Source: Promethearchaeota archaeon (GTDB lineage Archaea; Asgardarchaeota; Lokiarchaeia; Sigyniarchaeales; SOKP01). From it: 64,000 nt of DNA. Position numbers and translations under genes: made by a program. Under the pieces are notes generated by a model. It was not told where the DNA came from. It worked only from the letters and a program-made list of their open reading frames with translations, and searched no databases. The stretch is from assembly GCA_029838195.1 (NCBI GenBank), contig JALGVJ010000013.1:1-64000 (forward strand), in the 5' to 3' direction. Numbering within the stretch: position 1 is the first letter of the stretch; each line of letters opens with the position of its first letter. This document shows, piece by piece, positions 5,223 through 55,051 of this stretch.

Positions 5223-6653
5223 ATGGCAAATAAAACTGGAATGGAAAGATTAGAAGAACTGAAAGGCCAAATCTTCAAATGTATTCACTGTAAGGCCTGC
5301 AGATTCGCTTATTCAGGAGAACCAAGCCGAAAAGGCATTGGTGAGTATAAGGGTAAACAGAAAACGGTTTTGTATGAAGGAATGGTAGATTCCTGTCCGG
5401 CTGGCATAGAATACGGCTGGGAAGCATTCTGGAATGCTGGAAAAGTCTGGATTGCACGCTCCATATTGAATGGAGATTTGGAGTTCTCTGAAGAGGTTCG
5501 TGATGTAATCATGCCATGCATTACATGCGGGATGTGTTCTGCTCAATGTGAAAACAAGATTCCTACTGTTGATATCATTGAATCACTTCGAGCCGCATGT
5601 ATTGAAGCAGGTGTTCCAATGATTGAAAAACATGAATTAGTAAATAGACTTGTTAAGGAATTGAATAATCCCTATGGTGGCAAGGCAGAGGAACGATTTA
5701 AGTGGGCTAAAGACGCAGGTTTGGAAAAATACATTAACAATAAAGGTGCGAAAATAGGCTATTTTGTGGGTTGTACTGCTTCTTATCGACAAATTGAAGT
5801 GGCTGTAGCAACAGCAAAACTTTTTGAACAATTAGGCATAAATTTCACTTTAATTGAGGAAGAAGTATGCTGTGGAAGTCCTTTTTTTAGAATAGGAGCA
5901 GTAAATACAGCTCAAGAACTGATGAACAAGAATCTTGAATTATTTAAGGGGTTAGATATGGTATATTTTTCGTGTGCTGGGTGTTACAGGACCATAACTA
6001 TTGATTATCCTAAATGGATGCCTGAAGGTGAAAAGCTTCCTTTTAAGACTCAACACGCCTTCGAGCTAATAGCCCGATTAATTCAACAAGAAAAAATAAA
6101 ATTCAAACCTAACAAAGAATTAAAGGGTAAAGTTGTGACTTATCATGATCCGTGCCACACAGGGCGACACTTCGGCATTGATTTTGAACAAGAGCTTATA
6201 AAACAGAGTAAAAATTTAATGTTCGATATGAGAAAAATTACTCAAAAAATTGATGAGTGGTTCGAAATTCCACGAGTTATTCTCAGAAAACTTCAAGAAG
6301 ATGTTGGTATTGTGTTCAAAGAAATGTATCGAATCAAGCTGAATTCCATGTGTTGCGGTGCAGGAGGTGGAGTTCGGGCGGGCTATCCTGATTTCTCCTT
6401 ACGCACGGCAAGCCTTAGATGTGATGAAGCGAATGCAATTGGAGCTGACATTCTCACGACGGAGTGCCCGTTCTGTTGGAGGAATCTTACTGATGCTAAT
6501 GAATTATATGGACATGGCATGAAAGTCATGGGGGTGCTTCAGATGATTACTGAATATGGTTTATTGGATATAGTGGCTTCGCCTTCCGAACAAGATTTCT
6601 TGACACCTTCTATTCGCGAGTTAGAAGAGGAGGGGTCAAAGAAAAAAAAGTGA
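5223..6653 (+). CDS. (Fe-S)-binding protein with two CCG domains (GlcF/HdrD-like)
   Basis: This is the predicted electron-accepting partner of the upstream FAD oxidoreductase. The N-terminal third has ferredoxin-like cysteines, CIHCKAC..SCPAG and CITCGMCSAQCENK. The first CCG domain contains VGCTASYRQ, EEVCCGSPF and SCAGCYR. The second contains HDPCHTGRHFG, MCCGAGGGVR and TECPFCWRN. CCG domains bind Fe-S clusters in heterodisulfide reductase subunits and in lactate or glycolate oxidases. The start is supported by GAGAGG about 10 bases upstream, an internal-operon pattern. It could serve lactate/glycolate oxidation or another flavin-to-Fe-S electron route; the sequence does not decide. Confidence 0.82.
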   Translation: MANKTGMERLEELKGQIFKCIHCKACRFAYSGEPSRKGIGEYKGKQKTVLYEGMVDSCPAGIEYGWEAFWNAGKVWIARSILNGDLEFSEEVRDVIMPCITCGMCSAQCENKIPTVDIIESLRAACIEAGVPMIEKHELVNRLVKELNNPYGGKAEERFKWAKDAGLEKYINNKGAKIGYFVGCTASYRQIEVAVATAKLFEQLGINFTLIEEEVCCGSPFFRIGAVNTAQELMNKNLELFKGLDMVYFSCAGCYRTITIDYPKWMPEGEKLPFKTQHAFELIARLIQQEKIKFKPNKELKGKVVTYHDPCHTGRHFGIDFEQELIKQSKNLMFDMRKITQKIDEWFEIPRVILRKLQEDVGIVFKEMYRIKLNSMCCGAGGGVRAGYPDFSLRTASLRCDEANAIGADILTTECPFCWRNLTDANELYGHGMKVMGVLQMITEYGLLDIVASPSEQDFLTPSIRELEEEGSKKKK

Positions 6654-6931
6654 AAGGGGAAGGCACTTACTAAATCTTTTTTTTTCCTCATTTTTGTTTA
6701 GATATTTTTTCATTTAATCCCGTATTATATTTTTGGTTCAATTGTAAAATAAATTTTCTAATTTAAGAAAACGATTGATTAAAGGTTTTTAGATAATAAT
6801 TAAAACTCGAGGATTCGCATTTCATGAGAAGAAAAGGGATGGGAAGGGGAGAGAGAGAAGAAAACAAAATTTTTAAAAGGCATGATATTTTATTTAACAC
6901 TAAAGCAATTGTTTTAAAATTGTGGAGAACC
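6654..6931. other. Intergenic DNA before the leuA leader
   Basis: AT-rich DNA with a T9 tract around 6678-6686 that could end the preceding operon. An in-frame ATG at 6824 would lengthen the leader peptide, but that stretch is only Arg/Lys/Glu-rich, and the better ribosome site lies at 6924-6927. Confidence 0.35.
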
Positions 6932-7051
6932 ATGCCTCAGAGAATAACAATTTTTAAGAGAAGCCTTGTTCTGAGGAAGGATTCTTCGATAAAACGATTG
7001 CTTGGGTCTTTAATCTTATTAAACTCTTTATTATTATTATTATTATTATAA
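6932..7051 (+). CDS. Putative leucine leader peptide, 39 aa, upstream of leuA
   Basis: A short frame starts at ATG 6932 behind GGAG (6924-6927, 4-base spacing). It encodes a 39-residue peptide with 14 leucines, ending in seven consecutive TTA codons (7028-7048) and TAA. It lies about 87-99 bases before a 2-isopropylmalate synthase, the first committed enzyme of leucine synthesis. The stop codon abuts a C-rich arm that can form two competing hairpins. In bacteria this arrangement is classical attenuation (leuL). Leader peptides of this kind are not an established archaeal mechanism, so the function is inference. A drifting TTA microsatellite is the main alternative. Confidence 0.5.
   Translation: MPQRITIFKRSLVLRKDSSIKRLLGSLILLNSLLLLLLL
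6935..6976 (+). promoter_or_regulatory. Hairpin at the start of the leader peptide
   Basis: CCTCAGA (6935-6941) and TCTGAGG (6970-6976) are perfect 7-base complements separated by 28 bases. The first arm lies immediately after the leader ATG. Ribosome movement through the leader would melt it. A role as a pause hairpin is possible but unproven. Confidence 0.3.
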
Positions 7052-7115
7052 CCCCCTCCTTTCGAATTGAGGGCAATATATCTTGTTTGCATGATTCAAG
7101 GGGGGGATTCTTTTT
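7052..7115 (+). promoter_or_regulatory. Candidate attenuator: two mutually exclusive hairpins and a T-tract
   Basis: The arm at 7052-7058 (CCCCCTC) can pair over seven bases (one G-T) with the G7 run at 7100-7106. That run is followed by ATTC and T5 (7107-7115), a terminator-like form. Part of the same arm, 7054-7058 (CCCTC), pairs perfectly with GAGGG at 7069-7073, which would exclude the first structure. The same arm is also complementary, with mismatches, to the GGTGG-type sequences at the leuA start, so control could be translational instead. A ribosome stalled at the last leucine codons would cover this arm. Confidence 0.45.
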
Positions 7116-7149
7116 ACACTAAGTGAAATTAAAATAGGTGGAAATAGAG

Positions 7150-8763
7150 GTGGAAGGAAAAAAAGAAATAAATGTTTCGAAAATGATGGAAGTAATCAGG
7201 GAAGAGTTGCTCCTGCCTGAGAAAGCTTACTTTTTCGATACTACGCTTCGGGATGGAGAGCAAACCCCCGGAATAAGTTTTACATTGGAGGAGAAAATTT
7301 CCATTGCCCGTGCGTTGAATGAACTGGGCATTGACGTGATAGAGGCTGGATTTCCGGTGGTTTCTCAAGGAGATTTTGATGCTTGTCGGGAAATTGCCCA
7401 TTTGGGTTTAGATTCCGAGGTCATTGGATTGGCAAGATGCAATATGGTGGATATAGATAAGGTCATTGAAGCCGATATGGATAGCATTCACGTGTTCATT
7501 GCGACCTCGGATTTGCATTTAAAGGAGAAACTTCAGATGACGCGTGAGGAGGTCTTGGAACAGATTGAAAAGACGGTGTCATATGCTAAAGAGCATTACT
7601 CAACCGTGTTATTTTCTGCGGAGGATGCGACTCGTTCCAATTTAGACTTTCTATTAAAAGCCAACAAGCTAGCGGTGAAATGCGGGGCCACGCGCATTAA
7701 TATTCCGGATACTGTTGGAACTATCACGCCGAAAGCGTTCGGATACATCGTTCGCAAGCACCATGAATTCTTGCCAAAAAACGTGCGAATTGCGGTTCAT
7801 TGTCATAATGATTTTGGATTGGCCGTGGCAAATACAATTGCGGGGTTTGAAAATGGAGCATCAGAAGCTCAAACGACCATAATGGGTTTAGGAGAGCGGG
7901 CCGGTAATGCTTCTTTTGAGGAAACAGCCATGTCCTTGTATGCGCTTTATGGCATTCCCATGAACATCAATACTCGAAGAATTTTTCCCACGGCAAAATT
8001 AGTGGAGAGTTATTGTGGTGGAAAGATTAAAATCGGAAGGCTTCAGCCTTTAATTGGGCAAAATGCCTTTGCTCATGAGTCGGGAATTCATGCCCATGCA
8101 ATGATTAAGAATGCTCGCACGTATGAACCCTTATCCCCCGAGTTAATTGGCATCAAGAGATCGGACTCCATGGAGGAGATTGTTCGGCAGTCGATTAAAT
8201 TGGGGAAACATACGGGAGGGCATGCGCTTAAAGCCAAATTAAAGGAATTGGGCGTGAATACTACTGAAGAGCAGTTTAATAAGATAATGACAAACGTCAA
8301 ACGATTTGGCGATAAAGGACATGAAGTATCAGAGGAGGATTTCTTGGCAATCGTGAAAGACGTGTTGGGACAAATACCAGAACAAGAGCAATTTGTTCAT
8401 TTGGAGGAATTAACCGTATTGACGGGTTCGGTGACACCTACAGCGACCGTGAAGTTACAAATTAAAAATAATGGTGAATATATCGAGAAATTGGCTTCTT
8501 CTGTTGGTGTTGGCCCAGTAGATGCGAGCGTCAAAGCAATTGTCAAGTGTTTTGAGCCCATGAGTAAAATCAAACTCTTGGAATATAATATTGAAGCGGT
8601 TACGGGAGGTACGGAGGCTTTAGGACACGTTTCCATTGAATTAATGGACTTAGAAAGCAATCATATCGTGAAATCAAGCGCAACTCATGAAGATATTGTC
8701 ATGTCGTCGGTTTTAGCTCTCTTGAAAGGATTAAACCGGCTTTTAAAAGCAAAAAACAGTTAA
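7150..8763 (+). CDS. leuA: 2-isopropylmalate synthase (LeuA family)
   Basis: The family condenses acetyl-CoA with 2-oxoisovalerate in leucine synthesis. The HMGL-like TIM barrel shows DTTLRDGEQTPG, HCHNDFGLAVANT and ESGIHAHA. A full C-terminal LeuA dimer/regulatory domain is present (SVTPTATV, YNIEAVTGGTEALG), as needed for end-product feedback. I chose GTG 7150, with AGGTGG eight bases upstream (7136-7141). GTG 7138 and ATG 7183 are alternatives. Archaeal relatives include citramalate and homocitrate synthases, but the leucine-rich leader upstream favours isopropylmalate synthase. The stop overlaps the stop of the converging aminotransferase. No other leu genes are in the window. Confidence 0.82.
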   Translation: MEGKKEINVSKMMEVIREELLLPEKAYFFDTTLRDGEQTPGISFTLEEKISIARALNELGIDVIEAGFPVVSQGDFDACREIAHLGLDSEVIGLARCNMVDIDKVIEADMDSIHVFIATSDLHLKEKLQMTREEVLEQIEKTVSYAKEHYSTVLFSAEDATRSNLDFLLKANKLAVKCGATRINIPDTVGTITPKAFGYIVRKHHEFLPKNVRIAVHCHNDFGLAVANTIAGFENGASEAQTTIMGLGERAGNASFEETAMSLYALYGIPMNINTRRIFPTAKLVESYCGGKIKIGRLQPLIGQNAFAHESGIHAHAMIKNARTYEPLSPELIGIKRSDSMEEIVRQSIKLGKHTGGHALKAKLKELGVNTTEEQFNKIMTNVKRFGDKGHEVSEEDFLAIVKDVLGQIPEQEQFVHLEELTVLTGSVTPTATVKLQIKNNGEYIEKLASSVGVGPVDASVKAIVKCFEPMSKIKLLEYNIEAVTGGTEALGHVSIELMDLESNHIVKSSATHEDIVMSSVLALLKGLNRLLKAKNS

Positions 8764-53800: not shown

Positions 53801-55051
53801 ATGATAAGAGAAGTAGAAAAAGGGCATACCTTATTAGTTAAAGGGCCCACGAGAGTAACGCTGTTAAATGGAAAATTAGAAATATTTGGAAAATTAATCA
53901 CGCCTCCCAAGGAGCGAACAAAAGAAGGAGAGGAAGAGAGAGAATATCATGAAGAAAAAGGAGTTTTAATCATTCCTGCAGGTACTTCTTATCCCTTATA
54001 TTGTGTTGAAAAATGCAAATTCGAAATTTTTTCTTCGAACTTGGACGAAAATTTAATGGAAGTGGACGAAAATACGATAAGCGATAGCTGGATAGAGATC
54101 AAGGATAAAATCCTTAGCTTTATCAAGAAAAATACAGATAAAAAACCGATAAAAATAATGGTTTTAGGTATCAGTAGTGGAAAGACCACGATTTTAAAAT
54201 ATCTAGCGAATAATTTTTTAAGAGAAGGATTAAAAGGGGGATACCTCGATACGGATCTTGGGCAACAATTCATTTATATTCCAACAACGATAAATATTGG
54301 AGAAATTTCGGAACCGTTAGTTTCAGGGGATAACATCCATCCCGAAGAGACTATTTTTATTGGAGCAACCTTTCCAAAAGGTAATTTCAAGTTTATATTG
54401 CCTAAAGAAAGTAAAAATCTCATCGAGAAGTTTAAACAAAACCATGAAGATGCCGATTTTATCCTAATCGACACGGATGGATGGATTAAAACAGAAAACG
54501 GCATCATTTATAAGAATTTTTTCATTAAAACTGTAGATCCGGATATTATCATTGTATTTTATGATGAAACGGTGGAAGAATTAATAAAAATTGTTGAAGA
54601 AGCGAGCCAAAAAAAGGAGAGAAAGATCTTTAAAATTACCGAATTAAATAAGTATTATTTTGAGAAAAATAAAGATGAGAGGCGGTTTATTAGGCAATCC
54701 CTTTTTTCAAAACATTTTGCATCATTTCGAAAAATCGTGCTTCCCTTAGATGATATTAAATTCGTTAAGAAAGAATATGATAAAGAAAAGGACGAAATCA
54801 TCGAAATCGAATTGGATCTGGAGGAATTAATTAAATTACCTTATCATTATGTCATAACGGCACTATTAACAGAAAATTCAGAGTTAATTAACATGGCTTT
54901 GCTCTTTAACATTAATGCAGAGCCAGAAAAATCGTATATTTTAATTTATAGTGATATCCCCTATAAGGAGCAAGTAAAAATAAAAAAAATTCTAATTGGG
55001 AGCCTCCGCTTGTCAACAAAAGGAAATCATCAGGGATATTTATATCTCTAA
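53801..55051 (+). CDS. Clp1/Grc3-type polynucleotide 5'-hydroxyl kinase
   Basis: The N-terminal beta domain (LLVKGPTRVTLLNGKLEIFG) precedes a P-loop, GISSGKTT (123-130). LDTDLGQQ (149-156) is the Clp1/Grc3 signature, and IDTDGWI follows. Archaeal members phosphorylate 5'-OH ends of RNA or DNA, and eukaryotic ones act in tRNA and rRNA processing. It could act after tRNA splicing, which is notable given the intron-bearing tRNA in this window. Length 416 aa. Confidence 0.85.
   Translation: MIREVEKGHTLLVKGPTRVTLLNGKLEIFGKLITPPKERTKEGEEEREYHEEKGVLIIPAGTSYPLYCVEKCKFEIFSSNLDENLMEVDENTISDSWIEIKDKILSFIKKNTDKKPIKIMVLGISSGKTTILKYLANNFLREGLKGGYLDTDLGQQFIYIPTTINIGEISEPLVSGDNIHPEETIFIGATFPKGNFKFILPKESKNLIEKFKQNHEDADFILIDTDGWIKTENGIIYKNFFIKTVDPDIIIVFYDETVEELIKIVEEASQKKERKIFKITELNKYYFEKNKDERRFIRQSLFSKHFASFRKIVLPLDDIKFVKKEYDKEKDEIIEIELDLEELIKLPYHYVITALLTENSELINMALLFNINAEPEKSYILIYSDIPYKEQVKIKKILIGSLRLSTKGNHQGYLYL

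Follow-up and report, generated by a model that had tools for sequence, protein, structure and literature searches.

A conserved leucine-rich leader upstream of leuA in Lokiarchaeia and its candidate role as a ribosome-operated switch

Introduction

The question raised by this locus is whether an archaeon adjusts leucine synthesis through ribosomes that translate a short, leucine-rich frame upstream of leuA. The bacterial leu, trp and ilv operons are controlled by ribosome-mediated transcription attenuators of the E. coli leuL, trpL and ivbL type, and attenuation at a translated leader, taught from bacteria, is the textbook example of what follows when transcription and translation are coupled. 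The locus lies in a 64,000-nt stretch of DNA, analysed at its full length and hereafter called the window, from a genome (94 contigs, 4.5 Mb) of the Lokiarchaeia, which are related to the archaeal ancestors of eukaryotes. A preliminary description of this DNA had proposed leu attenuation and had stated that no leader-peptide attenuation of amino-acid synthesis is known to be established in archaea. Our search of the open-access literature agrees in finding no description of leader-peptide attenuation in an archaeon, and we regard priority for archaea as provisional. A 2021 review of archaeal transcription-translation coupling does not mention attenuation (PMC8116511). A passing remark in one methods paper counts archaea, with bacteria and eukaryotes, among the groups in which functional uORFs act by attenuation, and the passage concerned gives no archaeal example.

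Results

The leader in the window encodes MPQRITIFKRSLVLRKDSSIKRLLGSLILLNSLLLLLLL followed by TAA, with 14 Leu among its 39 codons and seven consecutive TTA codons at its end. Translation confirms the frame as the preliminary description had given it, together with its ribosome site (Table 1). Further in-frame ATGs lie upstream of 6932, as far as 6824, and other starts are possible, but ATG 6932 is the likely start because a Shine-Dalgarno (SD) sequence and a TATA-like box precede it. Judged from the sequence, the transcript would start near 6900. Among the relatives, 26 of 29 distinct sequences have an SD-like site before the leader, and a T/A-rich box (by eye) is found about 50-65 nt 5' of the leader start, with about the same spacing as in the window. 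With its one TATA-like box in front of the leader, the locus fits a single transcript that carries both the leader and leuA. The next gene product is 2-isopropylmalate synthase, as had been read from the sequence, with a score of 591 bits against NCBIfam NF002085 (cut-off 517). The gene upstream of the leader has its own oligo-T about 24-32 nt past its stop. An Rfam scan of positions 6650-7300 returned nothing near any gathering score, so no T-box or other curated RNA family was found there, and a plasmid search with the leader region gave no match.

Table 1. Features of the leuA leader locus in the window, and positions of the Trp-rich leaders in other genomes of the family
Feature	Position	Strand	Basis or remark
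TATA/BRE-like promoter element AAAATTTTTAAAAG	6866..6879	+	Sequence; judged by eye, no motif statistics
Leader Shine-Dalgarno GTGGAG	6922..6927	+	4 nt 5' of ATG
Leucine-rich leader peptide gene, 39 codons + TAA	6932..7051	+	Translation; kept in 30/30 family genomes
Putative control run, seven Leu (UUA) codons at leader end	7028..7048	+	Translation; Leu kept with varying codons in relatives
Predicted RNA hairpin, outer arms 7053-7061 and 7098-7106	7053..7106	+	Folding, arm-swap co-variation
U5 after hairpin, terminator-like	7111..7115	+	In window; T5 or longer in only 2/30 relatives
leuA Shine-Dalgarno AGGTGG	7136..7141	+	AGGT kept in most relatives
leuA, 2-isopropylmalate synthase	7150..8763	+	Start GTG 7150 from alignment to relatives
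Trp-rich leaders before trp genes	L139, L140, L141, L145, L146, L258:3058-3109, L259:2827-2878, L260, L261, L262, L263:615-681		Positions on trp strand

A LeuA search of 97 related genomes gave 30 same-family orthologues at 76% identity or more, the window genome included. All 30 family genomes with this leuA, which span 9 genera, carry a Leu-rich short frame that stops about 90-135 nt before leuA, and Leu is kept in this frame while codons, flanks and length vary. The preliminary description had named such conservation against varying nucleotides as the test of its reading, and the family passes it strongly. It had also named what would speak against that reading, namely relatives with no such frame or with a length-variable TTA repeat in broken frames. 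Neither is seen: in the 29 distinct sequences among the 30, on which the frame and codon tallies are based, the leader frame is open in all, the +1 frame in none and the +2 frame in one, and the Leu codons vary. Leu makes up 38% of the leader residues and 8% of those in LeuA, and it occupies the C-terminal positions -2 to -5 in 24-28 of the 29 sequences with differing codons (at position -4, TTA 18, CTC 5, CTT 3 and TTG 2). Within the last six leader codons, UUA accounts for 72% of the Leu codons, compared to 43% in leuA, and the rest of the leader is not enriched; these counts come from related sequences that are not phylogenetically independent. The leader N-terminus is often M-K-x-L-Q-like.

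With a threshold of at least 7 Leu in the last 12 residues, a Leu-rich tail is found upstream of 27 of the 30 leuA genes and of 0 of 91 other genes on the sense strand. The controls are regions 5' of trpE, hisG, prephenate dehydratase and ilvB-family genes in this genome set, put through the same scan; two of the 91 pass the threshold on their antisense strand, and these are trpE regions overlying an upstream gene. The three leuA leaders under the threshold (L020, L021 and L032) have 6 Leu of 12, and L032 is the least typical. None of the LeuA paralogues within the same genome is preceded by a leader, and no Leu leader lies within 400 nt of the LeuA orthologues of families f3 and f4 and of other classes. 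Isopropylmalate dehydratase family genes likewise show no convincing Leu leader upstream.

The leader stop is followed by a predicted hairpin whose place is nearly fixed. In all 29 distinct sequences its outer stem starts between -3 and +5 nt from where the stop codon ends, and most of the hairpins reach to 35-44 nt short of the leuA start. In the window, the arm CCCCTCCTT pairs with AAGGGGGGG, and its first base is 1 nt past the leader stop. Against dinucleotide shuffles of these sequences, which are related and not phylogenetically independent, the hairpin has a mean z of -3.5, and an upstream control window has -0.07. The stem sequences differ widely among relatives. In an alignment-free arm swap with fixed windows, the 5' halves fold with their own 3' halves at a mean of -19.4 kcal/mol, compared to -12.3 kcal/mol with the 3' halves of relatives, and among the 29 candidate partners the own 3' half is the best in 14 cases and one of the best three in 21. 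By this comparison the predicted hairpin arms co-vary, which argues against a DNA operator, since an operator would keep its sequence. RNAalifold on a MAFFT alignment returned no structure, which we think is due to sequences too diverged and hence misaligned.

If the 15 nt that follow the stop are blocked, as they would be by a stalled ribosome, the fold is weakened by a mean of 10.7 kcal/mol. When the 5' arm is blocked, single-sequence folds give the 3' arm no consistent new partner, and thus no conserved antiterminator is visible. A run of T5 or longer occurs within 40 nt after the hairpin in 2 of 30 genomes, the window genome among them, and the T fraction 3' of the hairpin is unremarkable. 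The mean unpaired probability of the leuA SD (AGGT) is 0.68 with and 0.65 without the hairpin. The 3' arm is 75% purine, compared to 24% in the 5' arm, and it is SD-like in 24 of 27 cases, which leaves a standby-site model open; no conserved start codon is seen at the usual distance from this arm.

Of the family genomes, 11 yielded a trpE, and each of these has a Trp-rich frame ahead of its trp operon; trpE is not detectable in the window genome. In genomes whose trp cluster, as found, begins with a gene other than trpE, it is that gene which the Trp leader precedes. The leaders end in TWFWDWRWHA, TWFWAWRWHA, TWFWAWRWHV, TWVWAWRWHA, TWFWVWRWHA, TWFWFWHWHA, RWQWLWRA (two genomes), RWHWSWRA and GWQMPWRY (two genomes), the last with only two Trp, below the threshold and recognised by eye. 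A stem encloses the stop of the Trp leader, with compensatory differences between groups, and it is weak in L260. Runs of T6-8 lie before trpE in some of the trp leaders. The regions upstream of hisG and prephenate dehydratase show no convincing His or Phe/Tyr leaders. Between the Trp leader and trpD, L258-L262 also contain a conserved palindrome (CTTTATTATATTGAATTCCAATATAGTAAAG in L258), and in L260 at least, a small frame of about 80 codons lies directly 5' of trpD.

Three genomes of the same order and other families (G063, G065 and G072) carry Ile/Val/Leu-rich frames before a true ilvB. At three loci 5' of ilvB (L178, L180 and L182), a segment after the stop of an Ile/Val/Leu-rich leader is complementary to the leader's own SD, as in GGAAGGAGT with ACTCCTTCC in L180 and GGAGTCAATT with AATTGACTC in L182, where CTCTC is also complementary to the ilvB SD. 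A further ilvB locus (L179, genome G069) has a frame ending VSFMVAFIIFF, after which come a perfect hairpin, AAAGCGGTA...TACCGCTTT, and then, immediately ahead of ilvB, TTATTC, resembling an intrinsic terminator.

Leu leaders with a long hairpin at the stop precede leuA in two genomes of family f2, which belongs to this order as well (G061 and G070). Leu-run leaders with a predicted hairpin enclosing the stop also precede leuA at four loci of the Altiarchaeota (L066, L072, L100 and L103), with the endings LLLLLLRQRA, LLLLLLGLRE, LLLLLLRLRE and LLLLLRPRA. By sequence, the unrelated Altiarchaeota are a second archaeal group with leucine leaders; no convincing Trp leader was found upstream of their trpE. 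L067 is a weaker Leu-leader candidate. Short similar frames ending KPLLPTMGLLPQA and KPLLLTLRLLPQA lie 5' of leuA in the Euryarchaeota RBG_16_67_27 (L070) and RBG_19FT_COMBO_69_17 (L071), and these are possibly weak Leu leaders.

Discussion

Comparison among relatives establishes the leader, the conservation of its Leu residues, the predicted hairpin, its co-variation and its fixed place beside the stop; ribosome stalling, the sign of its effect and its output are what we infer from them. We put at about 0.88 the probability that these elements form a cis-acting, ribosome-operated leucine switch on leuA. Cognate specificity counts for such a switch, because Trp leaders precede trp and Ile/Val/Leu leaders precede ilvB. 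In the switch that we propose, the transcript would start upstream of the leader, and ribosomes would translate its 39 codons. When charged Leu-tRNA is scarce, a ribosome would stall on the terminal Leu codons, most of them UUA, and would cover the 5' arm, which starts within about 5 nt of the stop, so that the hairpin is prevented and leuA is on. When leucine is plentiful, the ribosome would terminate and leave, the hairpin would form, and leuA expression would be low.

The output could take several forms. We give roughly even odds to transcription being lost past the leader, through termination by the polymerase or dependent on FttA once the ribosome shield is gone. A more doubtful output is that the 3' arm, purine-rich and SD-like, becomes exposed and serves ribosomes as a standby site; mRNA processing or decay would be an unlikely one, and some other output seems less likely still. 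FttA-dependent termination is plausible and would make a U-tract after the hairpin unnecessary, because FttA acts on U-rich nascent RNA and, according to one proposal, is shut out when a ribosome is coupled (PMC11616081). Caution on the output step is advised by Streptomyces coelicolor, because its similar-looking Leu leader before leuA failed to show the behaviour expected of classical attenuation (PMC1262725).

Classical transcription attenuation of the E. coli trp or leu type, in which stalling favours an antiterminator and a GC-rich hairpin with a U-tract otherwise terminates transcription, is suggested by the window hairpin, which is GC-rich and followed by AUUCUUUUU, and by the T6-8 runs before trpE. 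Across the family this mechanism looks unlikely, since T runs past the hairpin are rare and the T fraction there is unremarkable, the 3' arm lacks a consistent alternative partner when the 5' arm is blocked, and archaeal termination is described as depending on poly(U) or FttA (PMC8116511). An intrinsic-terminator reading of the hairpin, good in the window, was rejected as unconserved. Of the attenuation proposed in the preliminary description, the translated, leucine-sensing leader is well supported by comparison of sequences, and the U-tract terminator and the antiterminator that strict attenuation by premature transcription termination would use in bacteria are not conserved. Translational control would have the stalled ribosome open the hairpin and free the 3' arm as a standby site for leuA that is otherwise hidden. 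The purine bias and SD-like sequence of this arm and the distance from the hairpin end to the leuA start fit it; the unchanged accessibility of the leuA SD and the lack of a conserved start codon at the usual distance from the arm do not, and we consider it improbable though worth keeping in view. Sequestration of the leuA SD by the hairpin is unsupported on the same accessibility values and was rejected.

The frame could also encode a small Leu-rich, perhaps membrane, protein that has no part in regulating leuA, as its hydrophobic C-terminus and recurrent N-terminus might suggest. This is very improbable, because strong conservation is limited to the leucines, Trp-rich and Ile/Val/Leu-rich peptides take the same position before trp and ilvB, and a co-varying hairpin stands at a fixed place past the stop. 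As for a chance TTA repeat or a U-rich terminator of the upstream gene, the window copy is indeed a pure TTA run in an AT-rich region. The relatives, however, replace TTA with other Leu codons in frame, the other frames are closed, none of the 91 sense-strand control regions has such a tail, and the upstream gene has its own oligo-T. The probability of this explanation is close to nil, and a chance repeat is already refuted by the relatives.

The sequence comparisons strongly support ribosome-mediated amino-acid sensing in archaea, and the parts tested give no support to attenuation of the strict bacterial type. More tentatively, leader-peptide control might be a general archaeal mode, used for leu, trp and ilv in Asgard archaea and separately for leu in Altiarchaeota, and acting through factors such as FttA that sense lost ribosome cover and not through bacterial-type terminators. 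The conserved leu, trp and ilv leaders in Lokiarchaeia offer natural reporters with which to follow coupling in the archaea closest to eukaryotes, and they make archaeal ribosome control of polymerase, possibly via FttA, directly testable.

The closest parallels are the bacterial attenuators. Like the present leaders, they serve the leu, trp and ilv pathways and consist of a short frame, preceded by an SD, in which codons for the amino acid made by the operon follow one another, and of a hairpin that a stalled ribosome would affect. A leader with cognate codons before its cognate operon and a conserved hairpin in reach of a stalled ribosome are both found here, whereas an intrinsic terminator (judged by the U5 of the window and the T runs of its relatives) and a mutually exclusive antiterminator (judged by single-sequence folds) are not conserved. 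The host and the promoter type are archaeal, the hairpin starts right at the stop of the leader, and a single hairpin seems to act as the switch, because a conserved U-tract and a visible antiterminator are absent. The actinobacterial LEU element 5' of leuA likewise combines a Leu-codon leader with a conserved RNA structure and no obvious terminator, but its structure is a pseudoknot with a closing stem in which Leu codons pair with the leuA SD (PMC1262725). No such base stem can form here, since (UUA)7 and AGGUGG lack complementarity, and what comes after the stop is a simple hairpin. In translational attenuation of the ermC type, a ribosome stalled on the leader also remodels downstream RNA; however, ermC hides the SD of the main gene, which remains equally accessible here, and its trigger is a drug, whereas amino-acid supply would be the trigger here. 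FttA (aCPSF1) acts at the elongation complex, prefers U-rich RNA, such as the UUA run here, and may, as has been proposed, be kept away by a ribosome coupled to the polymerase (PMC11616081). Loss of ribosome cover could therefore stop transcription without a hairpin terminator, although that study does not tie FttA to amino-acid leaders. Elsewhere in the window, positions 53801-55051 encode a protein with the P-loop domain (Pfam PF16575) of the mRNA cleavage and polyadenylation factor CLP1.
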